Position numbers and translations under genes: made by a program. Source: Bacteroidota bacterium (lineage in GTDB: Bacteria; Bacteroidota; Ignavibacteria; Ignavibacteriales; Ignavibacteriaceae). Taken from it: DNA of 33,009 nucleotides. This document shows, piece by piece, positions 15,674 to 30,206 of this stretch (positions are counted from its first letter, which is position 1; every line of letters begins with the position of its first letter). The notes under the pieces were generated by a model. That model did not search any database. It was not told the origin of the DNA and saw only the letters and a program-made list of their open reading frames with translations. The stretch is taken from contig JAKAJV010000011.1 in the NCBI GenBank assembly GCA_021813585.1, forward strand, positions 1 through 33,009, in the 5' to 3' direction.

Positions 15674-16078
15674 TCAGGCCGATTCAGCCTTTTTTCTATT
15701 TTTCCCTGCAATAAAAAATATTATTAAAGCGCCGATAAGAGCCGCAATAAAGTCTGCTGCCCAGTCTTTTATATCGCACGACCTGCCCGGTATAAAAAGC
15801 TGGTGCAATTCATCCAAAGCTGCGTAAACACTTATTATGAGCACTGTAAATAGAGAAGACTTCGATTTTAGCAGCTTGTATTTATTCTGCACAAGCAGAG
15901 CAAGATTTAATATAACCGCAAGAATTAAGTAGGCTGTAAGATGTTCAATCTTATCGCTTACACCCAGCTTGGGCAAGTCCTGTCCCGGTAAAGACGTTGC
16001 AGTTAAAAGTATAATCCAGTAAACAACAAGCGGAAAATATACCGCTCTTATTTTATTTTTTTCCAAATAATCAAGCAA
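15674..16078 (-). CDS. VanZ-like small membrane protein
   Basis: The 134-residue protein has about four transmembrane helices and the VanZ-like signatures S-D-K-I-E-H-L-T-A-Y near 40-49 and L-D-E-L-H-Q-L-F-I-P-G-R near 88-99, followed by D-x-x-x-D. VanZ proteins are associated with glycopeptide tolerance in some Gram-positives, but most homologues have unknown function; no resistance role is implied here. Its TTG start (16076-16078) overlaps the stop of the upstream NAD(P)HX repair gene by 8 nt. A GAGGA site lies about 7 nt upstream, inside that gene. This is a clear translational-coupling arrangement. Confidence 0.85.
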   Translation of the reverse strand: MLDYLEKNKIRAVYFPLVVYWIILLTATSLPGQDLPKLGVSDKIEHLTAYLILAVILNLALLVQNKYKLLKSKSSLFTVLIISVYAALDELHQLFIPGRSCDIKDWAADFIAALIGALIIFFIAGKNRKKAESA

Positions 16079-17636
16079 AGGATTTCCTCAGGAATTTTAT
16101 AGCTTTAGGTAAGTTATGAATAATGTCTTCGGCAGTATATCCGAATTCGGTAAAATCATTCAGCAGCAAGTCGGCGGCAAGGCTGTGCAGGTACACGCCG
16201 CAAATTACTGCATCTTCTATTTCTTTTTGTTGGGATAACAGCCCGGCTATTACCCCGGTTAAAACATCGCCCGTGCCGAATTTTGCCATACCGGGATTAC
16301 CTGTTGTGTTAATAAGCGCCTCTCCGCCAGGAGTAAAAATTATTGAAGGAGCTCCTTTCAAAACCAGAAACGATTTTGTCCCGGTTGAAAATGCTTTTCC
16401 GTAAGCAAGCAGGTCTTTTTCCAATTCAGCAGTCTCTATTCCCAGCAGGTTTGCAAACTCCCCGTGGTGCGGAGTTAAAATTTTATTTTTAAGATTTAAT
16501 TCTTTGTATTGTCCCTTCCCTATCGCAAATATTCCGTCCGCATCCAGAACAATCCTCTTTTCCGGGAAGGTTTTTAAAATTTTAATTACTGCATTTTGAG
16601 TTCGGCTGTCTCTGCCGATTCCGGGTCCTACCGCAAGTACATCGGCCCACTCAATACGTTTTTTTAATTCATCCGCGTTCTTTTCAAGGAGTATTTCGTT
16701 GTCTTCATCATTATAGGGCTGCACTACAACTTCAGACAGCCTTTTGTAAATATATTTACGCGAGCTTTTGGGAAAGCATAAAACTGAAGCTCCCGCTCCA
16801 ATCTTAAGAGATGACCTAGAAGTTAGCGATGCTGCGCCCGGGAATGCACCCGAGCCCGCTATTGTTAATACTTTGCCTGCAGTATATTTATTTGCGTTCT
16901 TATTCTTAACCGGCAAAAAACCGTATGCGTCTTCCGGCTCAATTAAATATTCCGCAGGTTCAAACTTATCAAAAAAATTAAAGCTTACACCGATATTCCC
17001 TTTTACTATTTCGCCGGAACAATTTGCGCCTTCGCCGATGAACAGGCCCTTCTTCAATTCGCCGAGAGTAACTGTAAGATCGGATTTGAAGACAACATCA
17101 CCCCAGCCCGTATCGGCATTAAGTCCGGTCGGGATATCAACTGCAACCTTAAATGCATTAATCTTATTTAAGTCTTTTACAATCGATTTATAAGGCTCTT
17201 TCAATTCGCCTTTCCCCCCGCTTCCCAAAACGGCATCAATAATTATATCAGAGCCGGCAATGTATCTTAAATCTTTTTCCGACTCGAATTTCTGCAGCGT
17301 AAGATTCTCATTCTGCACGGCTATGCCGTTCAGGATTTTAAAATTCGAAAGGCAGTCCGGAGACATCTCCGCTTCGTTTCCAAGATAAACTACATTAACA
17401 ATAAAACCGTTATTTGCAAATTGCCTGGCAGCAGCAAATCCGTCACCGCCGTTGTTTCCCTTGCCGCAGACGATTCCTATTTTGCTTCTTCTTTCCAGAT
17501 GAAGAGTTTTTTCATTAACGAAATTAAAAATTTGGAGAGCGGCATTTTCCATTAGAACCAGGCCCGGTATTCCGAGCTGGTTAATTGCGTAGCCGTCAAC
17601 CTCCCTAACCTGATCTGTTGAAAATAGCGGAATCAT
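16071..17636 (-). CDS. nnr: Bifunctional NAD(P)H-hydrate epimerase / ADP-dependent dehydratase
   Basis: This 521-residue metabolite-repair enzyme restores NAD(P)H from its hydrated forms. The N-terminal YjeF_N epimerase half shows G-K-G-N-N-G-G-D-G-F at 58-67 and I-I-D-A-V-L-G-S-G at 132-140. The C-terminal ribokinase-like dehydratase half shows A-G-K-V-L-T-I-A-G-S near 253-262, G-P-G-I-G-R-D at 337-343, T-P-H-H-G-E-F at 388-394 and G-N-P-G-M-A-K-F-G-T-G-D-V-L-T-G at 446-461. Asp457 is the expected catalytic residue. The ATG has an AAAAGG site upstream. It lies 64 bp after nuoN and overlaps the VanZ-like gene, so it may be the bridge from the Complex I cluster to the downstream genes. Confidence 0.95.
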   Translation of the reverse strand: MIPLFSTDQVREVDGYAINQLGIPGLVLMENAALQIFNFVNEKTLHLERRSKIGIVCGKGNNGGDGFAAARQFANNGFIVNVVYLGNEAEMSPDCLSNFKILNGIAVQNENLTLQKFESEKDLRYIAGSDIIIDAVLGSGGKGELKEPYKSIVKDLNKINAFKVAVDIPTGLNADTGWGDVVFKSDLTVTLGELKKGLFIGEGANCSGEIVKGNIGVSFNFFDKFEPAEYLIEPEDAYGFLPVKNKNANKYTAGKVLTIAGSGAFPGAASLTSRSSLKIGAGASVLCFPKSSRKYIYKRLSEVVVQPYNDEDNEILLEKNADELKKRIEWADVLAVGPGIGRDSRTQNAVIKILKTFPEKRIVLDADGIFAIGKGQYKELNLKNKILTPHHGEFANLLGIETAELEKDLLAYGKAFSTGTKSFLVLKGAPSIIFTPGGEALINTTGNPGMAKFGTGDVLTGVIAGLLSQQKEIEDAVICGVYLHSLAADLLLNDFTEFGYTAEDIIHNLPKAIKFLRKSFA

Positions 17637-17700: not shown

Positions 17701-19131
17701 TTATCTTAAAAATGAAGTTATTAACCCAATTAAGGAGCCGGGTGCAACGCCTACAACAATAACAAGCAGAACCGAAATTATAACTGCCAGTAAACCGGTA
17801 TTGCTGCGTTCAACAGAAAGCTCGGTCTCCGGTTCTTTAAAGTACATTAGGACTACAACTCTAAGATAAAAATAAACACTTATAACGCTGGATAAAACCC
17901 CTACTATGGCCAGCCACGTAAGATGAGCTTTTACAGCTGCAATAAAAACATAATACTTACCGAAGAACCCTGCAAACGGCGGGATGCCGGCAAGAGAAAA
18001 CATAAATACGGCAAGCAGCGCAGCCAGGATGGGATATCTGCTGCCCAAACCTGCATATGATTTCAAATCGAGATTCGTTTCTTCCCTACCTTCAATTATG
18101 GCTACAATTCCGAAAGCACCAAGGTTCATAAAAGTATATGCAGCCAGGTAAAAGACAATACCGGATAAGCCGTCGTTATTGCCTGCCGCCAAACCGATGA
18201 TCATGTATCCGGCATGAGCAATGGACGAATAGGCCAGCATTCTTTTAATGTTCGATTGAGAGATTGCAACTATGCTTCCGAACAGCATTGAAAAGACAGA
18301 AATTACTGCAAGGTACGGCTCAAAAATATTTTTGCCAGCATTGTTGAAAAGAACTCCGAGAGTTACAATAATAGCGCTGAAAGCCGCTGCTTTGCCCCCG
18401 GTAGAAAACAAGCCTGCAATTGTAGAAGACGAGCCTTCGTAAACATCCGGCACCCACATGTGGAACGGGAAGGCTGCAATCTTAAATGAAAAGCCTATTA
18501 GGAATAGCAGAATACCGGTGTCGAATAACAAATCGGTCTTCAGATATGAGAACCTTGAAGCTATAAGGTCTAACGATGTTGTACTTGCGGTACCGTAAAT
18601 AAGCGCAATGCCGTAAACAATAAAGCCTGTTGCAAAAGCGCCTAGTAAAAAATATTTTAATGCCGCTTCGTTAGCTTTAAGCTTGTGCCTGTTTAACCCG
18701 GCCAATGCATAAAAGCTAACCGACATCATCTCGAGACCCAGGAAAATAACGAACAAATCTTTAGCGCCGGCCATCAGCATCATACCAAGAACCGAGCTTT
18801 GAACAAGCAGGTAATACTCGCCGAAGTATGTACCGTACTTTTTCAGATAGTCTATCGAAAGCAGCGAAACAACAGCAGCCCCGAAGGTGAAGATGAAATA
18901 AAATACATTAACAATTCCGCCGGTAGCCAGCATATTCTGCATAACTATTGAGACGTAATTGACGTTTAGCAGTGAATAAAATCCGGCCGATAAAAATATA
19001 ATAATTGAAAGCCAAGGCAGTACAGTCTCACTTTTCTTCGAGTACATCTCGATGCAGAGTGAAACCAAAATACCGGTTCCAATTATTATTAAAGGTAAAA
19101 TGTTATAAAATTCTTGTATATTATTCAGCAT
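17701..19131 (-). CDS. nuoN: NADH-quinone oxidoreductase subunit N
   Basis: This is the third antiporter-like subunit of the Complex I membrane arm, 476 residues with about 14 transmembrane helices. The functional charge pair is present: Glu134 in G-L-E-M-M-S near 132-137, and Lys217 in F-S-F-K-I-A-A-F-P-F-H-M-W-V-P-D near 214-229. It should form one of the proton half-channels. In the usual nuo order it follows nuoM directly, but here an antiporter gene and a small acidic-protein gene lie between them. The start ATG at 19129-19131 has no clear ribosome-binding site and lies 21 bp after the small gene. Confidence 0.96.
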   Translation of the reverse strand: MLNNIQEFYNILPLIIIGTGILVSLCIEMYSKKSETVLPWLSIIIFLSAGFYSLLNVNYVSIVMQNMLATGGIVNVFYFIFTFGAAVVSLLSIDYLKKYGTYFGEYYLLVQSSVLGMMLMAGAKDLFVIFLGLEMMSVSFYALAGLNRHKLKANEAALKYFLLGAFATGFIVYGIALIYGTASTTSLDLIASRFSYLKTDLLFDTGILLFLIGFSFKIAAFPFHMWVPDVYEGSSSTIAGLFSTGGKAAAFSAIIVTLGVLFNNAGKNIFEPYLAVISVFSMLFGSIVAISQSNIKRMLAYSSIAHAGYMIIGLAAGNNDGLSGIVFYLAAYTFMNLGAFGIVAIIEGREETNLDLKSYAGLGSRYPILAALLAVFMFSLAGIPPFAGFFGKYYVFIAAVKAHLTWLAIVGVLSSVISVYFYLRVVVLMYFKEPETELSVERSNTGLLAVIISVLLVIVVGVAPGSLIGLITSFLR

Positions 19132-19152
19132 ATATATGAGACTTCAGCTTAG

Positions 19153-19518
19153 TTATTCTATAAATAAAATGTCCTCGTCGGTTTTTTCAATTTTCAGCTT
19201 ATGCTCGTCTTCAATATGGATGACAAGCTTTATATGGTTATCGAAATTAAAAATATCTTTGTCCTTTTCAACAACGATCAGCTTAACCGCTTCGTACTTG
19301 GAGACTACATCTTTTAAATTTTTATACTGCTTAAAATAGATTTCGGTATAATTCGCCGATTCATGAATATAAATTAATTTTGAATCGGGTGAGAAATTCA
19401 TGATTATATCATCATCAATTATAACTTTTAGTATTTCACAATTAAACGGCAGTATTGCCCTATTCCCGTAATAAAGTCCGTATTGTCCGTATTTCAAAGC
19501 TTCTTCAATTGTTTTCAT
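19153..19518 (-). CDS. Small acidic hypothetical protein in the Complex I cluster
   Basis: I do not recognise this 121-residue protein. It has no signal peptide or membrane segment and is acidic, with D/E-rich stretches (I-D-D-D-I-I near 54-59, a D-E-D near the end). Predicted structure is mostly beta-strand with one helix (E-E-A-L-K-Y-G near the start). It is likely real: the ATG has a strong GGAAAGGG site, it is packed 3 bp after the antiporter gene and 21 bp before nuoN, and its composition is protein-like. A regulatory or assembly role for the neighbouring membrane proteins is possible but is inference from position only. Confidence 0.68.
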   Translation of the reverse strand: MKTIEEALKYGQYGLYYGNRAILPFNCEILKVIIDDDIIMNFSPDSKLIYIHESANYTEIYFKQYKNLKDVVSKYEAVKLIVVEKDKDIFNFDNHIKLVIHIEDEHKLKIEKTDEDILFIE

Positions 19519-19521
19519 CTT

Positions 19522-20961
19522 TCAACCCTTTCCGTAAAAAAATACCAGCCAAACTAAAGTGAAAACAGGGACAAGGACTACAAAGGAATATTTAACTATA
19601 TAAGAAAAAAAGCTGGGCATATTAATCCCGGCCCGTTCACTTATTGATTTAACCATAAAGTTCGGTCCGTTGCCTATATACGTCATCGCTCCGAAGAAGA
19701 CGGCGGCAACAGAAATTGCTTTAAGATAAATTTCGTCTATAGATACAAATTGTAAAACATGGGCTTTTAAAGAAACATCCAGCGCATATTTGCCCATAGC
19801 AGCGCTGAGAAAATTCATATATGTCGGCGTATTATCTAGTACGGCAGAAAGCGAGCCGGTAGCCCAGTAAAAAATTCCCGCATTCAATTTGCTGCCTATT
19901 ACATGCGCTTCATTAGCTATCAGTTGCAGCGCCGGAATCATAGCGGCAAATATTCCTGCGAACAAATAAGCGACTTCTTTAATCGGCTCAAAGTCAAACT
20001 CGTTGTCTGTTAAAGCAGTCTTATCGGCAAATTTATAGGATAAAACCACGACTGCAAACATAACAATTTCTCTTATCCCGAACGGCAAAGGTGAAAGGTT
20101 AGGCACCCAGCCGAACACAACGGGATCGATAAAAACAGCAATGATAATTATTAAAAGGAATATCAAATTTCTAGTCCCTTTAATCTGAATCTTGCCGGAG
20201 TGCGCCGTAACTTTTCCCGCATCCTTCTTGTTGTTAACATCAAAAAAATAAAATACCGCAATTACTAAAAGAACAGCCGGCAGCCATATATACCATACGT
20301 TTTTAATTACCCAGAAAAAAGGAACGCCGCTTAGATACCCCAGAAACAAAGGCGGATCGCCGATAGGCGTTAGTGCACCGCCGATATTGCTGACTATAAA
20401 AATAAAAAATATTATATGGTACGGTGCAATCCTTTCCCTATTCATTCTTATAAAAGGCCTTATAAGAAGCATCGACGCGCCTGTAGTTCCGATAATGTTG
20501 GATATAAAAGCACCGAACAATAAAAACAAAACATTCATTAAGGGCGTGGATTTCTTATCCACCTTAATAAGTATACCGCCCGAAGCCACAAAGAGCGAGC
20601 TTAGCAAAGCAATAAACGAAATATATTCCGTTAAAGTATGCAGAAGGCTTTCATAGTTGTTTAAGAAAAAAATATAATAGACTACCACAACAAGCCCGAG
20701 CAATATTGAAATTTTCGGGTAATGATTTTCCCAGAAGTGTTTGTAGAACAAAGGCCCGGTTGCAATCATCAACAAGAGCAATATAAACGGAATAACCATT
20801 AGCGGATTAGGCAGGGCGTTCACGCCGCTTCCGGCTGCGGTATTCACCAGCCTATCTACAGCAGAATGACTTTCTACAGCCTGTGCTGCCGTAAAATCAA
20901 TACTTAGAAAGAACAAATAAACGAATAAAGCTATAAAAAATATTATCCATTTAAATTTCAA
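19522..20961 (-). CDS. NhaD/ArsB-type sodium:proton antiporter-like protein
   Basis: The 479-residue polytopic membrane protein belongs to the ion-transporter superfamily with two inverted repeats. The first repeat has S-N-I-I-G-T-T-G-A-S at 154-163 and S-N-I-G-G-A-L-T-P-I-G-D-P-P at 191-204. The second has L-D-N-T-P-T-Y-M-N-F and Y-I-G-N-G-P-N-F-M. These helix-break motifs place it near the sodium:proton antiporters of the NhaD type rather than citrate symporters, although the ion is not proven by sequence. The start is TTG with AAAGGA 8 nt upstream; the next Met (residue 55) would remove the first hydrophobic segment. It is 13 bp after nuoM and 3 bp before the acidic small gene, so it sits within the Complex I cluster. 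Confidence 0.86.
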   Translation of the reverse strand: MKFKWIIFFIALFVYLFFLSIDFTAAQAVESHSAVDRLVNTAAGSGVNALPNPLMVIPFILLLLMIATGPLFYKHFWENHYPKISILLGLVVVVYYIFFLNNYESLLHTLTEYISFIALLSSLFVASGGILIKVDKKSTPLMNVLFLLFGAFISNIIGTTGASMLLIRPFIRMNRERIAPYHIIFFIFIVSNIGGALTPIGDPPLFLGYLSGVPFFWVIKNVWYIWLPAVLLVIAVFYFFDVNNKKDAGKVTAHSGKIQIKGTRNLIFLLIIIIAVFIDPVVFGWVPNLSPLPFGIREIVMFAVVVLSYKFADKTALTDNEFDFEPIKEVAYLFAGIFAAMIPALQLIANEAHVIGSKLNAGIFYWATGSLSAVLDNTPTYMNFLSAAMGKYALDVSLKAHVLQFVSIDEIYLKAISVAAVFFGAMTYIGNGPNFMVKSISERAGINMPSFFSYIVKYSFVVLVPVFTLVWLVFFYGKG

Positions 20962-20974
20962 TAGAATCCTTTCA

Positions 20975-22498
20975 CTACTTCATTCCTATTATTTTATTTG
21001 GTAATACTTGCTCAATAATTGATTGAGTGGATTTGGCAGACACTTTTAAGAAAGTGCCCGGATAAATCCCGATCCAAACGATGAATAGAAATATAGATGC
21101 CAGGACGAAAATTTCCCGGTTGTTCATATCGGTAAGCGTACTCATTTTAGGATTTTTAACTTCGCCGAAGAAAACTCTCTGGTACATCCATAAAAGATAA
21201 ACCGCCGCAAAAATAACGCCGCTGGCTGCAAACACCGTATACCACCAGCTGTTCAATACAGGGGATTTAAAGGAACCGATTAAAATTAAAAACTCACCCA
21301 CAAACCCGTTTAATCCGGGTAATCCGATTGATGACAATGAAGCAATCATAAAAAATGTTGCAAAGACCGGGACTACTCTGGCGATGCCGCCGTATTCGGA
21401 AATTTCCCTTGTATGTGTCCTATCATAAACAACTCCGACTAAAAGGAACAGAGCTCCGGTAGAAAGGCCGTGGTTTATCATTTGAATTACCGCTCCTTGA
21501 ACTGCCTCAGGCGTCATTGCAAAAATTCCCAGGACTACAAAGCCAAGGTGTGCAACCGATGAGTAAGCCACCAGCTTCTTCATATCTTTCTGTACCATAG
21601 CAACCAAAGCGCCGTAAATAATACCTATAATTGCCAGCACGGAAATGTAAGGCGCAAAGTGAATTGAGGCTTGAGGAAACAACGGAAGGCAAAATCTCAA
21701 CAGACCGTATGTTCCCATCTTAAGCAATACCCCCGCAAGAATTACGCTGCCTGCGGTGGGCGCTTGCACGTGTGCATCCGGCAGCCATGTATGCAGCGGG
21801 AACAAGGGCACTTTTATTGCAAAGCTTAACGCGAATGCAAGGAACATCCATTCCTGAATGTTGGCTTGGATAGTCGGACCTATACTATAAAGTTCCAATA
21901 AGTTTGTAGAAAAATGACCTAGCGATGAAGAAGCATAAACAGCCAGCCAGACAATAGCAACAAGCATAAGAAGGCTGCCAAACATTGTGTAGAGGAAAAA
22001 TTTAACCGATGCGTAAATTCTGTTGTCGCCTCCCCAGATGCCGATAATAAAATACATCGGAATAAGCATCGCTTCCCAGAAAACATAAAACAGGAAAAGA
22101 TCGAGTGCTATAAAAACTCCGAGCATACCTACTTCTAGCAAAAGCATAAAGAAGGTGAACTCCTTTACATTATGCTTAATGCTCTTCCAGCTGGACAGCA
22201 AAGTAAGCGGAGTTAAGAACGTAGTAAGCATTACAAGGAGAAGAGAAATTCCGTCAATACCCACATTATAGCTAATATGCAGGTTTTGAATCCAATCAAA
22301 CTTCTCTACAAATTGAAATCCGCCCTTGGTTAAATCGTAATTAAAAAATAAAACAAGAGAAATGATAAAAGCGAGCACAGAAACAAACAGGCCGAAATAC
22401 CTGACCAAATTCTCTTTATCCTTGCCGAAAAAGAGCAGGATAATGCTTCCGGCTAACGGAGCTAGTATTAGAAATGACAGCAGATAATTATTTTCCAT
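20975..22498 (-). CDS. nuoM: NADH-quinone oxidoreductase subunit M
   Basis: The middle antiporter-like subunit of the Complex I membrane arm has 507 residues and about 14 helices. Glu142 in F-W-E-A-M-L-I-P-M-Y-F at 140-150, Lys229 in F-A-I-K-V-P-L-F-P-L-H-T-W-L-P-D at 226-241 and Lys260 match the charged residues of the proton path. H-V-Q-A-P-T-A-G-S at 243-251 is also diagnostic. The ATG is 3 bp after the nuoL stop, and its own stop (TAG) is 13 bp before the antiporter gene. All residues expected for pumping appear intact. Confidence 0.97.
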   Translation of the reverse strand: MENNYLLSFLILAPLAGSIILLFFGKDKENLVRYFGLFVSVLAFIISLVLFFNYDLTKGGFQFVEKFDWIQNLHISYNVGIDGISLLLVMLTTFLTPLTLLSSWKSIKHNVKEFTFFMLLLEVGMLGVFIALDLFLFYVFWEAMLIPMYFIIGIWGGDNRIYASVKFFLYTMFGSLLMLVAIVWLAVYASSSLGHFSTNLLELYSIGPTIQANIQEWMFLAFALSFAIKVPLFPLHTWLPDAHVQAPTAGSVILAGVLLKMGTYGLLRFCLPLFPQASIHFAPYISVLAIIGIIYGALVAMVQKDMKKLVAYSSVAHLGFVVLGIFAMTPEAVQGAVIQMINHGLSTGALFLLVGVVYDRTHTREISEYGGIARVVPVFATFFMIASLSSIGLPGLNGFVGEFLILIGSFKSPVLNSWWYTVFAASGVIFAAVYLLWMYQRVFFGEVKNPKMSTLTDMNNREIFVLASIFLFIVWIGIYPGTFLKVSAKSTQSIIEQVLPNKIIGMK

Positions 22499-22501
22499 AA
22501 T

Positions 22502-24469
22502 TTATAAACTTAGAATTAACCAGAATAATGCAGTTACAATTCCCAGCATCATTACAAGGGCATATGATTGAGCGACGCCGGTTTGAACCTTTCTTATCTT
22601 TGCCGAGACGTATCCGATAATTGATGCCGTACCGTTAACAATTCCGTCAATAAGGCCGGCATCGGTAATTTTCCACAACAATTTTTCGGAGCCAACTACA
22701 ATAGGCTTAACAACGGTTTTCTCATACGCTTCGTCAACAAAATATTTATTAAACAAAAGATTATAAATGCCTTTAAACTTTTGCGCATATACGGCAGGCT
22801 TTTGGGTATTGTGGATATATAAATATCTTGCGTACCAGATGCTCAAGGCCGCTCCGATAACAGTAACGCTCATTAGTAATATTTCTTCAAAATGCGAATG
22901 AGTTCCGTAAATCATTAATCTTGATTGGGCATTGGCAAAAACCGGTTCAAGCCAATTTTCGAAAGCATTTCCGTTTGCGCCCGAAAACAATTCGGGGATA
23001 CCGATGAAGCCGCCGATAACAGACAGTACTGCCAAAATCATTAAGGGAACCGTCATTATTTTGGGAGATTCATGCGGGTGCTTGTCGTGCCCGAACCTTT
23101 CCTTACCTTCAAAAGTCAGGTATACAAGTCTAAACATATAGAATGCAGTCATCAACGCGGTAATTGCGCCTATAAGCCAATAAAGGAAATTGCCGTTGGC
23201 AAACGAGTACCAAAGTATTTCATCTTTACTAAAGAAACCGGCAAACGGCGGTATACCGGAGATAGCAAGAGAAGCGGCAAGGAAAGTTAAATACGTAACC
23301 GGCATATATTTTTTTAATCCGCCGTACTGCTGTATGTTCTGTTCATCGTGCATAGCATGGATAACGGAACCGGCACCGAGAAATAACAGGGCCTTAAAAA
23401 AAGCGTGCGTCATTACGTGAAAGATTCCGGCGGAAAAAGCGCCTACGCCTAATGCTAAGAACATATATCCGAGCTGGCTTATTGTTGAATAAGCCAGAAC
23501 TTTTTTAATATCGTTTTGAACAAGTCCGATAGTTGCGGCAAACATTGCAGTTAAAACTCCGACCACAGCAACTACCGTCATTATTGCAGGAGCGGAAGCG
23601 TAAATAATTGAACAGCGGGCAACCATATACACACCGGCAGTTACCATTGTTGCTGCATGTATTAAGGCCGAAACGGGCGTGGGACCGGCCATTGCATCGG
23701 GCAGCCAAATGTATAGCGGTATTTGCGCAGACTTACCTGTAGCGCCTATAAACAGGAATAATGCTATAAAGTTGAATGTACTTGACGGGATATTAAGCGC
23801 ATTAATTCTGGAAAACACTTCATTAAAGTTTAAGCTGCCGAAAGTCAAATAAATTAAAAACATTCCAAGTAGAAATCCGAAATCGCCTATCCTGTTAACA
23901 ATGAATGCCTTCTTTGCCGCATCGCTTGTAGAGCTTTTCTCAAACTTGCGGTCATACCAAAATCCAATCAGCAGGTACGAGCAGAGCCCTACTCCTTCCC
24001 AGCCAAGAAAAAGAAGAACAAAGTTATCGCTTAAAATTAAATTCATCATTGCAAAGATGAACAAGTTAAGATATGAGAAGAACCTCCAGAATGCCTTATC
24101 ACCATGCATATAGCCGATTGAATAAACATGGATAATAAAACCTACTCCTGTAACAACAAGCGCCATAATAAGTGAAAGCTGGTCAACCTGGTAAGCAACG
24201 CTTATGTTTAATCCGCCTGCCTGTATCCATGTAAAAAGATTAACTATGGTTTGTCTATTTTCGGCCGGCAAAGCGAGCGTCTGGATAAACGCGCCGATTA
24301 CAATTAAAAAAGATAAACCGATTGCGCCGCTTCCTATTATTCCGATTATCTTTTCGTTTTTTCCGCCGGAGGCGGATCCGCCTAGGCGTGAAATTTTTCT
24401 TCCGAACAGCCCGTTAATCAAAAACCCCAGAAAAGGGAGCAGAACCGTTAAGTATATTAATTGAATCAT
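22502..24469 (-). CDS. nuoL: NADH-quinone oxidoreductase subunit L, with palindrome-encoded N-terminal loop
   Basis: The distal antiporter-like subunit has 655 residues, somewhat longer than the 613 of E. coli. Glu158 in G-W-E-G-V-G-L-C-S-Y-L at 156-166 and Lys246 in G-A-T-G-K-S-A-Q-I-P-L at 242-252 are the expected channel residues, followed by W-L-P-D-A-M-A-G-P-T-P-V. The C-terminal part includes the region expected to form the long lateral helix and a last membrane anchor. Residues 28-36 (R-L-G-G-S-A-S-G-G) are encoded by a GC-rich nested palindrome that looks inserted into the loop after the first membrane helix. The ATG is 9 bp after nuoK. Confidence 0.97.
   Translation of the reverse strand: MIQLIYLTVLLPFLGFLINGLFGRKISRLGGSASGGKNEKIIGIIGSGAIGLSFLIVIGAFIQTLALPAENRQTIVNLFTWIQAGGLNISVAYQVDQLSLIMALVVTGVGFIIHVYSIGYMHGDKAFWRFFSYLNLFIFAMMNLILSDNFVLLFLGWEGVGLCSYLLIGFWYDRKFEKSSTSDAAKKAFIVNRIGDFGFLLGMFLIYLTFGSLNFNEVFSRINALNIPSSTFNFIALFLFIGATGKSAQIPLYIWLPDAMAGPTPVSALIHAATMVTAGVYMVARCSIIYASAPAIMTVVAVVGVLTAMFAATIGLVQNDIKKVLAYSTISQLGYMFLALGVGAFSAGIFHVMTHAFFKALLFLGAGSVIHAMHDEQNIQQYGGLKKYMPVTYLTFLAASLAISGIPPFAGFFSKDEILWYSFANGNFLYWLIGAITALMTAFYMFRLVYLTFEGKERFGHDKHPHESPKIMTVPLMILAVLSVIGGFIGIPELFSGANGNAFENWLEPVFANAQSRLMIYGTHSHFEEILLMSVTVIGAALSIWYARYLYIHNTQKPAVYAQKFKGIYNLLFNKYFVDEAYEKTVVKPIVVGSEKLLWKITDAGLIDGIVNGTASIIGYVSAKIRKVQTGVAQSYALVMMLGIVTALFWLILSL
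24362..24388. repeat. GC-rich nested palindrome inside the nuoL coding region
   Basis: Three overlapping palindromic units occupy these 27 bases. A 6-bp stem TCCGCC/GGCGGA with a 3-nt loop lies at 24362-24376. A perfect 12-bp palindrome GGCGGATCCGCC is at 24371-24382. A perfect 10-bp palindrome CGCCTAGGCG is at 24379-24388. The DNA around it is AT-rich. The element is read in frame as residues 28-36 of NuoL, in the first loop, where length is normally variable. It looks like a small dispersed palindromic element captured by a gene, as with Rickettsia palindromic elements, but no second copy is present in this window. Confidence 0.6.
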
Positions 24470-24478
24470 AGAGGATTA

Positions 24479-24784
24479 TTACCACTTTAAGATATTTATT
24501 TCATCAATATTGACGGTTAATTTATTCCTGAACAGGGCTATAATGATAGCAAGACCTACAGCAGCTTCAGCCGCTGCAACCGTCATTACAAAGAATACAA
24601 ATAACTGCCCAACTGAGTTGCCCATATAAGATGAGAATGAAACGAGTGTTAAATTTGCAGAGTTAAGCATCAGCTCGACAGACATAAATACTATGATGGC
24701 ATTTCTTCTGGTTAAAACGCCGGTAACACCAACAACAAACATAAAGGCGCTTAATATTAAGTAATATTCTATAGGTATAGTCAT
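24479..24784 (-). CDS. nuoK: NADH-quinone oxidoreductase subunit K
   Basis: This small membrane-arm subunit of Complex I has 101 residues and three transmembrane helices. The two conserved membrane glutamates are present: Glu37 in S-V-E-L-M-L-N near 35-41 and Glu73 in A-A-A-E-A-A-V-G-L near 70-78, matching E. coli Glu36 and Glu72 of the proton path. N-S-A-N-L-T at 41-46 is family-typical. The ATG follows the nuoJ stop by 4 bp. Length and sequence are fully normal. Confidence 0.97.
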
Positions 24785-24788
24785 AATA

Positions 24789-25301
24789 TTATTCGAATTT
24801 CTTTTTAGCTAGAACCAACGCACCTATTGTAGCTGCTAACAGTAAGTAACCGGCAGCTTCAAACGGCAATATGTAATTTGTGTATAATTCTTTTCCAATT
24901 TGCTCTATAGTCCCCGCATTAACACTTGCCGCAACAGCAGGATTTGCGGCAGGAGTCGGCCTGGAAATAAATATCATAAAAGCTAATTGAATGAAAACCA
25001 ACGCCGTAATAACGATTGCGAATATTTTGATCTTAGGGTGCGAACTGAAGAATTTTTCCTTCTCCGGTTTCAGCAGCATAATTACAAAAAGGAATAAGAC
25101 CATTATTGCACCGGCATAAACTATTACCTGAGCAACTGCTATAAACTGAGCATTAAGTAAAAGATACAGTCCGGCTAAGGCAGCAAAATTTAGTACTAGA
25201 AAAAGCGCACTGATTACAGGATTTGACCTGGTAATCATTAAGATTGATGATACCGCCGCAACGGATGCAAATACTATGAATATAATTAATTCTAAGGACA
25301 T
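24789..25301 (-). CDS. nuoJ: NADH-quinone oxidoreductase subunit J
   Basis: This five-helix membrane-arm subunit has 170 residues. The conserved third-helix segment is visible as [20 protein letters not shown] at about 58-77. It contains the pi-bulge region implicated in coupling quinone reduction to pumping. A periplasmic A/P-rich loop sits near 113-127. It is the first gene of the local nuoJKLMN cluster; upstream is asnS on the same strand across 186 bp, not nuoI. The ATG at 25299-25301 has no Shine-Dalgarno in its AT-rich leader. A TTGCTC/TATTAT pair in that leader could be a promoter, but only weakly. Confidence 0.95.
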
Positions 25302-25487: not shown

Positions 25488-26771
25488 CTAAGGAGTATTT
25501 CTATATATCAACCTAGGAAACGGAATCGTTTCTCGAACATGGTCGAGTCCGCAAACCCAGGCAACTGTTCTCTCAAGGCCAAGCCCAAAACCCGAATGCG
25601 GAACCGAACCATATCTTCTTAAATCAAGATACCATTCAAATGCTTCCTGCGGAAGATTATGCTCTTTAATCCGAGATAAAAGAGTCTCGTAATTATCTTC
25701 TCTCTGGCTGCCGCCTATAATTTCACCATAACCTTCCGGTGCCAGCACATCCACAGCAAGAGCAAATTTATCATTCTGGGGATCGCGTTTCATATAGAAT
25801 GCTTTAACTTCCGCCGGATAATGATGAACCATTACAGGCCTGTCAAACTGGTTAGAGATTACGGTTTCATCTGTTCCGCCAAGGTCATTGCCGTATTCAA
25901 ATTCAATTTGATTTTTCATTAATATATCCACAGCTTCGTCATATGATATTCTCGGCAAAGGTTTTTTAACATTCTTAAGCAGAGTAGTATCACGTTCCAA
26001 AATCTTTAATTCTTCTTCTTTATCTTTTAAAACAGTTTGGACAATATATTCCAAGAATTCTTCTGCCAAATCCATATCATTATTTAAATCGGCAAATGCT
26101 ACTTCAGGCTCTACCATCCAGAATTCGGTTAAGTGCCTTCTGGTTTTGGATTTTTCAGCCCTGAATGTGGGACCGAATGTGTAAACTTTTCCCAAAGCCA
26201 TAGCCCCCGCCTCGGCATAAAGTTGACCGGATTGTGTTAGATATGCTTTACCAAGGTCAAAATAATTCGTCTCAAATAAAGTAGAAGTGCCTTCACACGC
26301 AGCAGGAGTAAGAATAGGAGGGTCCATTAATGTAAAGCCACAGTTATCAAAGAAATCTCTTATAGCTTTAACTAATCGATGCCTGATTCGGAGAATTGCT
26401 GTTTGCTTAGTAGAACGAAGCCAGAGATGACGGTGATCCATTAAATATTCAACACCGTGTTCTTTTGGTGTAATAGGATAATTATGCGACTCAGATATTA
26501 ATTTTAATCCGTACGCATCAAGCTCAAATCCTCCGGAAGCTCTTGGTTCAACTTTTACTTTCCCAGTTACTTCAATAGCAGATTCCTGGCCTAAGCTATC
26601 GGCTAATTCAAATACTTCATCAGTTACATTTCCTTTAAAATAAACACATTGAAGCAAACCGGTACCATCTCTAAGGATTACAAATTTTACTTTCCCGCTT
26701 GATCTTTTATTATAAAGCCAACCTTTTAATGTGACTTCCTGGTTAACGAATTGACTTAAATCTTTTATCAA
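25488..26771 (-). CDS. asnS: Asparaginyl-tRNA synthetase
   Basis: This class IIb synthetase charges tRNA-Asn with asparagine. The 427-residue protein has an N-terminal OB-fold anticodon-binding domain (1 to about 105) and a catalytic domain. Motif 2 is [16 protein letters not shown] near 206-221, [10 protein letters not shown] lies near 357-366 and motif 3 [10 protein letters not shown] is near 399-408. The [11 protein letters not shown] wording and the G-G-S-Q-R-E motif separate AsnRS from archaeal-type AspRS. A TTG start is forced: an in-frame stop lies at 26793-26795 with no ATG or GTG between, and the next Met is over 100 residues in. It is divergent from the nitrogen operon. Confidence 0.95.
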
Positions 26772-27486
<715 letters not shown>

Positions 27487-27512
27487 ATTACTCAACAAAT
27501 AAAAGGATAATT

Positions 27513-28613
27513 ATGATCAAACTTTTAACTACTATCAAAAAGCCGTTCATAGTCTTAGGGCTATGTACGCTAATCAGTCCAAGCATTTTTGCTCAGGATA
27601 AGGACACCTCATCAGTTTCCAATCCCCTTTCCATTACAGGGCTGATTGATATAAACTTTAATAAAAATTTTAATAATCCTGCCAGCCATATAAATGCCTA
27701 CAGAAACTTCGATATCTATGAAAACCAGTTTAATTTAAATCTTGCAAAGATTACACTGCAAAAAGATGCCAGCCCGGTTGGTTTTAAAGTAGATCTGGGA
27801 TTTGGTCAAGCTATGGATATAGTAAATAGCGATGCGAGTCTTGGTGGTGAAAAATCGCTTCGCAATGTTGAGCAGGCTTACCTAACCGCTAAACTACCTA
27901 TAGGAAACGGTTTAACAGTTAACGCAGGCAAGATGGTTACACACATGGGCGGCGAAGTTATCGAGACAAACAGCAATATTAATTACAGCAGGTCTTTTCT
28001 TTTTGCTTATGCTATACCTTACTTTCATTTAGGTGTATGCGCCAGCTACCCTTTCAACGATAAATTTAGTGCCACTCTTTATGTCTATAACGGTTGGAAC
28101 AATGTTGTAGACAATAATAAAGATAAAACACTCGGCGCTGAAATAAATTGGTCTCCTTCTTCTTCCTTTGCCTTTATTGAAAATTGGATAGGCGGACCCG
28201 AAGAACCCAACAGTACTCAGAAGCGGAATGTATTTGCTACAATAATTAATTATCAGCCATCAGACGCTGTGTTTGTAACGCTCAATGCCGACTATGGACA
28301 GGAAGCACTGGACCCATCGGGATTGGCAATATGGAAGGGCGCGGCGATAACAGGAAAATTCTCCCTAAGCGATTTATCCTCAATTGGTATAAGAGGTGAG
28401 TACTACTATGACCAATCCGGTTTTACTACAGGCACACTTCAGGAGCTTAAAGAAATAACTCTTACATACCAATATAATTTCACTTCAAATTTATTCACCA
28501 GAATCGAATTCAGGAGAGACTGGTCGGATGCTAATACTTTTGAAGACTCTTCTGGCGGTTTTACAAAAAACAACCAGAATACTTTACTAATAGGATCAGT
28601 ATATACTTTTTAA
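27513..28613 (+). CDS. Outer-membrane beta-barrel porin (BBP2/OmpL-like)
   Basis: The 366-residue protein has a signal peptide (hydrophobic core about 11-23, S-I-F-A-Q-D cleavage near 27) and then alternating amphipathic strands ending in an aromatic residue, V-Y-T-F. The stretch M-V-T-H-M-G-G-E-V-I-E-T and S-R-S-F-L-F-A-Y-A-I-P-Y-F-H-L-G, then Y-V-Y-N-G-W-N, is characteristic of putative beta-barrel porin-2 proteins. It probably lets small nitrogenous solutes across the outer membrane. Its position between P-II and Amt supports a role in ammonium or related uptake, which is inference from context. An AAAAGGA site precedes the ATG. Confidence 0.83.
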   Translation: MIKLLTTIKKPFIVLGLCTLISPSIFAQDKDTSSVSNPLSITGLIDINFNKNFNNPASHINAYRNFDIYENQFNLNLAKITLQKDASPVGFKVDLGFGQAMDIVNSDASLGGEKSLRNVEQAYLTAKLPIGNGLTVNAGKMVTHMGGEVIETNSNINYSRSFLFAYAIPYFHLGVCASYPFNDKFSATLYVYNGWNNVVDNNKDKTLGAEINWSPSSSFAFIENWIGGPEEPNSTQKRNVFATIINYQPSDAVFVTLNADYGQEALDPSGLAIWKGAAITGKFSLSDLSSIGIRGEYYYDQSGFTTGTLQELKEITLTYQYNFTSNLFTRIEFRRDWSDANTFEDSSGGFTKNNQNTLLIGSVYTF

Positions 28614-28637
28614 TAAAAAATAATATTAGGAGAAAGA

Positions 28638-30206
28638 ATGATTAAATATAAACTTACTTATACGCTGTTAATTATAGCAACATTCGCTCTTTTACTTACT
28701 GCAGCAATGCCGGCGAATGCTTATGCTCAAAATCAACCGGACCCTTCCGGTACAAAAACTGGAACTATTGCCGATGTTCCGGCAGCCAAGCCAGGTTCAC
28801 CCACTTTGCAGGAAATTGGTGATGCTGCCGGACATAATCGTGTAGCTATAAATTTTATGTGGACATTAATTACCGGATTTCTTGTAATGTTTATGCAAGC
28901 AGGTTTTGCAATGGTTGAGTCTGGCTTGACACGTGCAAAAAATGCCGCGCATACTATGGCCATGAATTTTATGATTTATCCTTTAGGTATGCTGGGTTTT
29001 TATCTCTGTGGTTTTGCTTTCATGTTTGGAGGCGTAGGTCCATTGGCAACTCTTGGCGGATATTCCGGGCTTAGCCACGAAATTACAATCAATCTTTTCG
29101 GGAAACCTTTTGGATTACTTGGCTGGAGCGGATTCTTATTACAGGGGGCTGGTTATGACACAGCCGTCTTTACACTTTTCCTTTTTCAAATGGTATTTAT
29201 GGATACGACCGCTACAATACCTACGGGTGCAGCAGCCGAACGATGGAAATATTCGGCATTTATGATATACGGTGTTTGCATCGGCTCAATAATGTATCCA
29301 ATTTTTGGAAACTGGGTATGGGGCGGCGGATGGCTAGCACAGCTTGGAACAAATTTCGGATTGGGTCATGGTCATGTAGATTTTGCCGGTTCAACTGTTG
29401 TTCATATGCAGGGAGGAGTGATTGGACTTATTTATGCTTGGTTATTAGGACCACGATACGGAAAATATAACAAAGACGGCAGTATTAATCCGGTGCAGCC
29501 TCATAGTATTCCAATGGCAATAATAGGGACATTCATTCTTGCTTTCGGCTGGTTTGGATTTAACCCCGGCTCTACATTAGCCGGAACAGATTTACGTATA
29601 TCGGTTATTGCAGTAAACACTATGCTGGCTAGCGCAACAGGTGCTCTTGCCGCAACATTGTGGATGTGGTGGTTCCGTACTAAAAAACCTGATCCTTCCA
29701 TGATGGCAAACGGAATGCTGGCAGGGCTTGTTGCAATAACTGCACCAAGCGCATTTGTTAGTGCCGGAGGCGCCTCAATAATCGGATTAATTTCCGGTGT
29801 GCTTGTTGTAGAGTCCGTATTCTTTTTTGATAGATTAAAAATTGATGATCCGGTAGGTGCAATATCGGTACATGGTGTTAACGGTGCATGGGGTTGTTTG
29901 TCCATCGGATTATTTGCCGATGGAACTTACGGAGACGGGTGGAATGGAGTTGCCGGGACAGTTAAAGGACTGTTTTATGGCGGCGGATTCGGTCAATTAG
30001 CGGCAGAGATAATAGGCGTATTAACATGCTTTGTTACGCTTTCAGTATTATCCATTATCGTTTATAAAATTGCCGAGCGTTTAGTCGGTAATCGTGTTTC
30101 TCTCGAAACCGAGATTGGTGGGCTTGATATACCGGAGATGGGTGTTCTTGGTTATAACGGATTTGAAATGGATAAAATTTCTGAAACTACGCATCCTATT
30201 AATTAA
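28638..30206 (+). CDS. amt: Ammonium channel/transporter
   Basis: The 522-residue inner-membrane Amt/MEP/Rh protein has a signal peptide ending A-Y-A-Q (residues 27-30) and a periplasmic leader of about 35 residues before the first of 11 core helices. The pore twin-histidines are present: His256 in D-F-A-G-S-T-V-V-H and His412 in G-A-I-S-V-H-G-V-N-G. Asp248, the conserved ammonium-site aspartate, is also there, as is W-G-G-G-W near 228-232. It is longer than E. coli AmtB (428) because of the N-terminal leader and an extended cytoplasmic tail. An AGGAGA site lies upstream. It is probably gated by the P-II protein of the same operon. Confidence 0.96.
   Translation: MIKYKLTYTLLIIATFALLLTAAMPANAYAQNQPDPSGTKTGTIADVPAAKPGSPTLQEIGDAAGHNRVAINFMWTLITGFLVMFMQAGFAMVESGLTRAKNAAHTMAMNFMIYPLGMLGFYLCGFAFMFGGVGPLATLGGYSGLSHEITINLFGKPFGLLGWSGFLLQGAGYDTAVFTLFLFQMVFMDTTATIPTGAAAERWKYSAFMIYGVCIGSIMYPIFGNWVWGGGWLAQLGTNFGLGHGHVDFAGSTVVHMQGGVIGLIYAWLLGPRYGKYNKDGSINPVQPHSIPMAIIGTFILAFGWFGFNPGSTLAGTDLRISVIAVNTMLASATGALAATLWMWWFRTKKPDPSMMANGMLAGLVAITAPSAFVSAGGASIIGLISGVLVVESVFFFDRLKIDDPVGAISVHGVNGAWGCLSIGLFADGTYGDGWNGVAGTVKGLFYGGGFGQLAAEIIGVLTCFVTLSVLSIIVYKIAERLVGNRVSLETEIGGLDIPEMGVLGYNGFEMDKISETTHPIN

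Follow-up and report, generated by a model that had tools for sequence, protein, structure and literature searches.

Antiporter genes situated among the genes for respiratory Complex I have a precedent in Rhodothermus marinus, in which nhaD and pcd occur with the Complex I genes according to the title of Melo et al. 2005, as cited in PMC8063116. The NhaE family (TC 2.A.111) was founded on the R. marinus antiporter, a Neisseria meningitidis homologue has also been characterised, and each of the two confers Na+ resistance on Escherichia coli according to the relevant passages of PMC9408914. For Melioribacter roseus, the available sections of PMC3534657 describe a 14-subunit gene set split into ABCDEF, GHI and JKLMN, as well as a further cluster that lacks EFG, and by their numbering M (Mros0135) and N (Mros0132) are separated by two genes; in these sections neither intervening gene, nor an antiporter, is named. 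Here we analyse a locus in a 33,009-nucleotide stretch of an Ignavibacteriaceae genome (the window; contig JAKAJV010000011.1, assembly GCA_021813585.1), in which the genes for an NhaE-like putative Na+/H+ antiporter (NHAD) and an unnamed, predicted soluble protein of 121 residues (AP121) lie between nuoM and nuoN, the minus-strand order being asnS-nuoJ-K-L-M-NHAD-AP121-nuoN-nnrD. In R. marinus, nhaD reportedly lies with pcd between nqo13 (M) and nqo14 (N) of a J-N operon and is said to be co-transcribed. As far as the title reveals, the general arrangement of an antiporter gene among Complex I genes is already known from R. marinus, and the present locus resembles it in having a NhaD-like antiporter gene there. 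The small gene differs, being a pcd homologue in R. marinus and AP121 here, whose 66 members include no Pterin_4a match and whose predicted fold is a beta-sandwich. The ndh clusters of M. roseus, as given in the available sections of its genome paper (PMC3534657), show the same split as the genome of the window and likewise two intervening genes between M and N.

Judged by gene content, NHAD-AP121 is a unit separable from the 14-subunit Complex I, and it has outlived that complex. In 22 genomes NHAD directly follows asnS with no nuo gene adjoining, and AP121 is kept in 18 of them; asnS and nnrD flank NHAD, or the pair, in nuo-less relatives too. These 22 loci, chosen for holding NHAD (L056, L067, L069, L076, L186, L188-L190, L196-L202, L204-L209 and L212), belong to genomes that were searched for NuoD together with five comparison genomes, using PF00361 and PF00346; another nuo-less locus, L089, lay outside this test. 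All five comparison genomes contained a one-piece NuoD match of type A, the 14-subunit set (E 4e-109 to 1e-114), as well as one of type B, the second Complex I-like cluster described below, whereas none of the 22 nuo-less genomes contained a type-A match (E<=1e-100). The two-piece type-B match (2e-65 to 1e-68) was present in 21 of the 22, with only 2e-33 in G123 (91% complete), and further one-piece NuoD-profile matches belonging to other clusters were found in G127 (4e-76) and in G080, G113, G114, G122 and G124 (5e-58 to 1e-61). Four of the 22 genomes are less than 91% complete or had fewer contigs read, and single absences may be gaps, though not all 22. The preliminary description had taken co-location as a sign of coupling between the antiporter and this Complex I, a reading not supported by the retention of NHAD in 22 tested genomes without a matching NuoD, nor by its position away from nuo genes elsewhere.

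Loss of the nuo genes, rather than their gain, is indicated because nuoM-NHAD is also found in outgroup loci (L127, L148, L152 and L154). A single clade of nuo-less loci was considered and set aside: the NHAD tree (99 rows, quick method) needs at least seven changes between nuo and nuo-less labels. Repeated loss is likely rather than established, because well supported branches force only one change for the nuo-less group.

AP121 is inherited with NHAD. Across 146 genomes, that of the window included, 81 hold both, 11 hold NHAD only, none holds AP121 only and 54 hold neither (Fisher p 2e-29, not corrected for kinship; NHAD presence was set at E<=1e-140, plus three cut genes). Because matches occur in 81 genomes, AP121 is not a chance open reading frame (ORF). 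Of 94 distinct neighbour pairs, 48 have NHAD and AP121 separated by -1 to 3 nt, five show implausible overlaps of >30 nt and two have gaps of 303 nt. In addition, a 66-row AP121 profile matched 71 of 395 genomes of the phylum, 24 of them in Ignavibacteriales and the other 47 in a single distant family (E 1e-6 to 2e-13). This family was taken as Chlorobiaceae because the FMO bacteriochlorophyll protein was found in 19 of 19 of its genomes tested; it was found in neither of the two Ignavibacteriales tested. In 20 Chlorobiaceae-type loci, read out of 48 places found and drawn from 19 genomes chosen by AP121 match, NHAD stands just upstream of AP121 in 12 (50-61% identity, one cut by a contig end), the two matches being 29-61 bp apart in 11 of the 12 and 313 bp apart in the other, and all 19 genomes hold NHAD somewhere. 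Matches to nuoJ-N were seen in only two of the 20 loci (L247 and L252), both without NHAD, at 23-34% identity and at least 1.5 and 6.4 kb from AP121.

The features of the locus are as follows.

19522..20961, minus strand: NHAD, NhaE-like IT-superfamily putative Na+/H+ antiporter, 479 aa (PF16980, 1e-141; ArsB/INDY fold predicted)
19153..19518, minus strand: AP121, unnamed 121-aa predicted soluble protein, proposed antiporter partner (orthologues beside NHAD)
24789..25301, minus strand: nuoJ (PF00499, 1.6e-42)
24479..24784, minus strand: nuoK (PF00420, 7e-29)
22502..24469, minus strand: nuoL (TIGR01974, 3e-233)
20975..22498, minus strand: nuoM (TIGR01972, 1.7e-193)
17701..19131, minus strand: nuoN (TIGR01770, 4e-122)
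25488..26771, minus strand: upstream flank, class II tRNA synthetase of D/K/N type, "asnS" (PF00152, 2.9e-73)
16071..17636, minus strand: downstream flank, NAD(P)H-hydrate repair protein with YjeF_N and Carb_kinase domains, called nnrD (PF01256, 5.6e-51; PF03853, 4.4e-40)

From nuoJ to nuoN the gaps are, in order, 4, 9, 3, 13, 3 and 21 bp, those of nuoM-NHAD, NHAD-AP121 and AP121-nuoN being the last three, and the flanking gaps are 186 bp (asnS-nuoJ) and 64 bp (nuoN-nnrD). The NHAD start codon is TTG, with AGGA upstream. Assignments of J, K, L, M and N agree in Pfam and NCBIfam profile searches. The ORF coordinates, the J-N-only nuo content, the tight spacing and the placement of the antiporter and AP121 between nuoM and nuoN (gaps 3-21 bp), all given in the preliminary description, were borne out by the ORF list, the two profile searches and the measured gaps. 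A scan for internal promoters was uninformative, with 27 promoter-like sites seen against 29.4 expected in shuffles.

The absence of nuoA-I, which the same description had found unusual, holds for the locus but not for the genome (142 contigs, completeness 99.95), where these genes occupy two other clusters: nuoABCDEF on contig C120 (L157) and nuoGHI on contig C72 (L158), both recognised by Pfam, with nuoI identified as an Fer4 protein adjoining nuoH. With nuoJKLMN on the contig of the window (C23), all subunits A-N of a 14-subunit NADH:quinone oxidoreductase are present, the NADH module E, F and G included. By this gene content, the locus supplies the J, K, L, M and N genes of a full 14-subunit Complex I, the type-A set (L157, L158 and the window). 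In the type-B cluster, on C86 (L159), Pfam identifies A, B, C, D and I, and other matches identify H, J, K, L, M and N; its genes run consecutively, without room for E, F and G among them, the scan having covered the ORFs between the two ends of the cluster. A further cluster on C128 (L160) encodes NuoD-, NuoH- and antiporter-like subunits and is perhaps a membrane hydrogenase. Between nuoD and nuoE of the type-A set lies an ORF of the 23S rRNA intervening-sequence family (PF05635, L157:7672-8067).

NHAD carries CitMHS-type sequence profiles, matching PF16980 (CitMHS_2) with 473 bits (cut-off 25.7, E 1e-141) and PF03600 (CitMHS) with 49.9 bits (cut-off 31.9, E 3e-13). In a joint AlphaFold2 model of NHAD and AP121 (pLDDT 91.3, pTM 0.82), the predicted NHAD chain has the IT-type ArsB/INDY fold: Foldseek gave 22 matches at E<=0.001, with ArsB best (E 4.4e-7) and ranks 1-16 all being ArsB, Pho90, NaS1, INDY and related transporters, and the VIA alignment with ArsB reached Z 31.3 (root-mean-square deviation 4.0, 388 aligned). 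A sequence search of PDB chains gave no match, and no NCBIfam antiporter model matched at E<=10, a comparison made with profiles and not with named NhaD sequences. In a plasmid collection, tblastn of NHAD found seven records, namely four of Azospirillum, two of Neisseria and one of Desulfolutivibrio; the Neisseria records exceed 2 Mb and are evidently chromosomes. An unannotated N. gonorrhoeae ORF is 39.1% identical to NHAD over 91%, matches PF16980 at 1.8e-187 and shares the motifs IGTTGA(S/A)MLxIRP, GDPPLFLG, LDNxPT and TYIGNxPNFMVK. It is probably the characterised NhaE, an identity suggested by these matches. NHAD shares with the NhaE family (TC 2.A.111) the CitMHS_2 Pfam, the IT superfamily and the motifs of the gonococcal homologue, and appears to be of NhaE rather than classical NhaD type; unlike that family, it is paired here with AP121, and its transport role is predicted from family and fold. 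The preliminary label of NhaD/ArsB-type transporter fits the IT superfamily and the predicted ArsB fold, while the nearest named type appears to be NhaE rather than NhaD.

AP121 had been described as an unrecognised acidic protein, and this holds: its isoelectric point is 5.09 (median of 66 orthologues 5.08, range 4.32-7.02), no NCBIfam model matched it, and no Pfam cut-off was reached by it or by the 66 members, of which one gave the best E of 0.0082, at chance level. A profile search of PDB sequences returned nothing at E<=10. With no leading hydrophobic segment and a hydropathy index (gravy) of -0.25, the protein is predicted to be soluble and cytosolic. A structural model from 66 rows (pLDDT 90.8, pTM 0.85) shows a short N-terminal helix and nine strands arranged as a predicted beta-sandwich, for which Foldseek found no match at E<=0.001. 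The best VIA match was a ZP2 domain (Z 6.1, root-mean-square deviation 2.9, 82 aligned), with many Ig-like rows at Z 3.5-5; because a VIA Z below 8 may reflect a common arrangement only, no fold family is claimed. Between Ignavibacteriales and Chlorobiaceae-type sequences the mean identity is 25%, and shared positions include G14, N19, L23-P24-F25, D41 (Asn in the window), E84, D88, F90 and N94.

Three ideas about AP121 were discarded. That it is a diverged PCD was rejected at the profile level, without direct PCD alignment, as Pterin_4a is not among the 24 Pfam families matched at E<=1 by any of the 66 members. pH sensing by H95/H106 was dropped, these residues being near-invariant in Ignavibacteriales but below 80% in one or both lineages (Ignavibacteriales and Chlorobiaceae-type). 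No AP121-NHAD contact is claimed from docking, the chains of the joint model having been joined by a 2-residue artificial linker and the model coming with neither interface confidence nor coordinates; from the INDY topology, the antiporter C-terminus may be periplasmic. In some Chlorobiaceae-type loci (L246:7766-9106, also L247, L252 and L254), an AP121 homologue precedes a 441-446 aa membrane protein instead of following NHAD, and the one scanned, in L246, is a DUF389 protein (PF04087, 2.5e-44).

Taken with the observed order, conservation, separability and co-inheritance and the predicted fold, these features suggest that the locus probably encodes an NhaE-type Na+/H+ antiporter and a soluble protein dedicated to it, the two being expressed along with a proton pump yet able to do without that pump. 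The respiratory chain, Complex I included, would establish a proton gradient, and NHAD, to judge from its family and fold, would draw on the inflow of protons to export Na+ and to fine-tune the pH of the cytoplasm. Placement of both in one cluster, with gaps of 3-21 bp that suggest co-transcription, may allow antiport capacity to rise with respiration. To judge from the co-inheritance, NHAD and not Complex I would be the target of AP121, a predicted beta-sandwich of the cytosol whose likeliest role is that of a regulatory or assembly subunit. Far more tentatively, AP121 could represent a new family of cytosolic NhaE accessory subunits, common to Ignavibacteria and Chlorobia and independent of the Complex I cluster, whose beta-sandwich would sense pH, Na+ or another ligand via the conserved G-N-LPF and E84/D88/N94 and switch the antiporter.

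Several observations weigh against a dedicated partnership independent of the pump. The counts come from related genomes rather than independent events. Nine of the 92 genomes with NHAD have no AP121 although the contig continues (G013, G017, G038, G042, G092, G105, G119, G125 and G126), which indicates that NHAD can function without it. An AP121 match is missing from all 61 named NHAD loci that lie outside Ignavibacteria and have no nuo genes alongside, so most NHAD relatives do without AP121, and in 8 of the 20 Chlorobiaceae-type loci AP121 is not beside NHAD. In addition, that the genes have long remained neighbours of nuoM and nuoN speaks for some connection with Complex I.

This last point bears on the alternative that NHAD, and perhaps AP121 too, functions as a component of this Complex I, its antiport being coupled physically or stoichiometrically to the J-N arm with Na+ cycling at the complex. 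When nine window proteins were compared with the relatives' loci by tblastn, the order asnS-nuoJKLM-NHAD-AP121-nuoN-nnrD was found to recur repeatedly in Ignavibacteriales. Among 80 named loci, NHAD adjoins nuo genes in 11 from Ignavibacteria, four Ignavibacteria loci are nuo-less (L086, L087, L089 and L105), nuoM-NHAD occurs in four outside Ignavibacteria (L127, L148, L152 and L154), and in the remaining 61 the flank examined contains no nuoJ-N match, some contigs being short; AP121 matched all 15 Ignavibacteria loci but none of the 65 others. In L148 and L154, nuoN follows nuoM-NHAD, in L152 one extra gene precedes nuoN, and L127 stops inside NHAD. Because nuoM-NHAD recurs across Ignavibacteriales and in four outgroup contigs, the order is old and conserved rather than a lone recent insertion, a possibility that the preliminary description had raised. 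Conservation of nuoM-NHAD-nuoN, also outside Ignavibacteriales, speaks for coupling, and the R. marinus precedent, known by title, points the same way. L152 adds a second, unrelated antiporter family to the slot, since the CitMHS_2 protein between nuoM and nuoN is accompanied there by a Na_H_Exchanger of CPA type (PF00999, 1.5e-59; L152:2061-4848), which favours a looser tie to Complex I. However, the 22 tested genomes that keep NHAD without this Complex I, and the Cytophagales and Chlorobiaceae-type loci in which it stands apart from nuo genes, make coupling unlikely. In one Ignavibacteriales locus (L216:832-4184, G035), a tandem NHAD-NHAD-AP121 precedes nuoN.

It is quite unlikely that NHAD carries another substrate, whether citrate or some other anion, a possibility hinted at by the Pfam title "Putative citrate transport"; the IT fold is indeed common to anion and cation transporters, but the Neisseria homologue of the same Pfam family is probably the NhaE whose characterisation the relevant passages of PMC9408914 describe, and the homologues on Azospirillum and Desulfolutivibrio plasmids are annotated "sodium:proton antiporter", names that are themselves predictions. 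The least probable alternative is that AP121 serves as a Complex I assembly or stability factor merely adjoining NHAD, for although it directly precedes nuoN where nuo genes are present, 18 of the 22 tested genomes without the 14-subunit complex keep it right after NHAD, and in 12 of 20 loci its Chlorobiaceae-type homologues have NHAD as a neighbour, while in no locus do they adjoin this nuo cluster; since at least 21 of the 22 hold a type-B NuoD, AP121 may yet have a role in the type-B complex.

The preferred reading, an antiporter and partner separable from the pump, makes the locus a natural test of the idea that an antiporter gene lying within a Complex I cluster signals Na+ coupling at that complex: relatives without the complex keep the antiporter, and gene neighbourhood by itself therefore cannot count as evidence for coupling. 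An unnamed candidate soluble partner for an antiporter family also emerges, none such being mentioned in the literature searched, which covered papers in part. That literature, with subscription papers, including the 2005 and 2006 R. marinus papers, lying outside the search, contained no description of AP121 or of the separability of the pair; in the passages available, PMC7599335 mentions nhaD and nuoM in unrelated places, and the word "antiporter" is not present in those of PMC5492636, on M. roseus respiration. As far as these partly available sources show, the family that AP121 forms is new, as are its association with NHAD, both in Ignavibacteriales and in genomes of Chlorobiaceae type, and the survival of the two genes together where the complex has gone. 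Elsewhere in the window, on the plus strand behind asnS (27148-30206), genes for a P-II regulator (PF00543), a beta-barrel porin (PF07642) and an ammonium transporter (PF00909) lie in a row.

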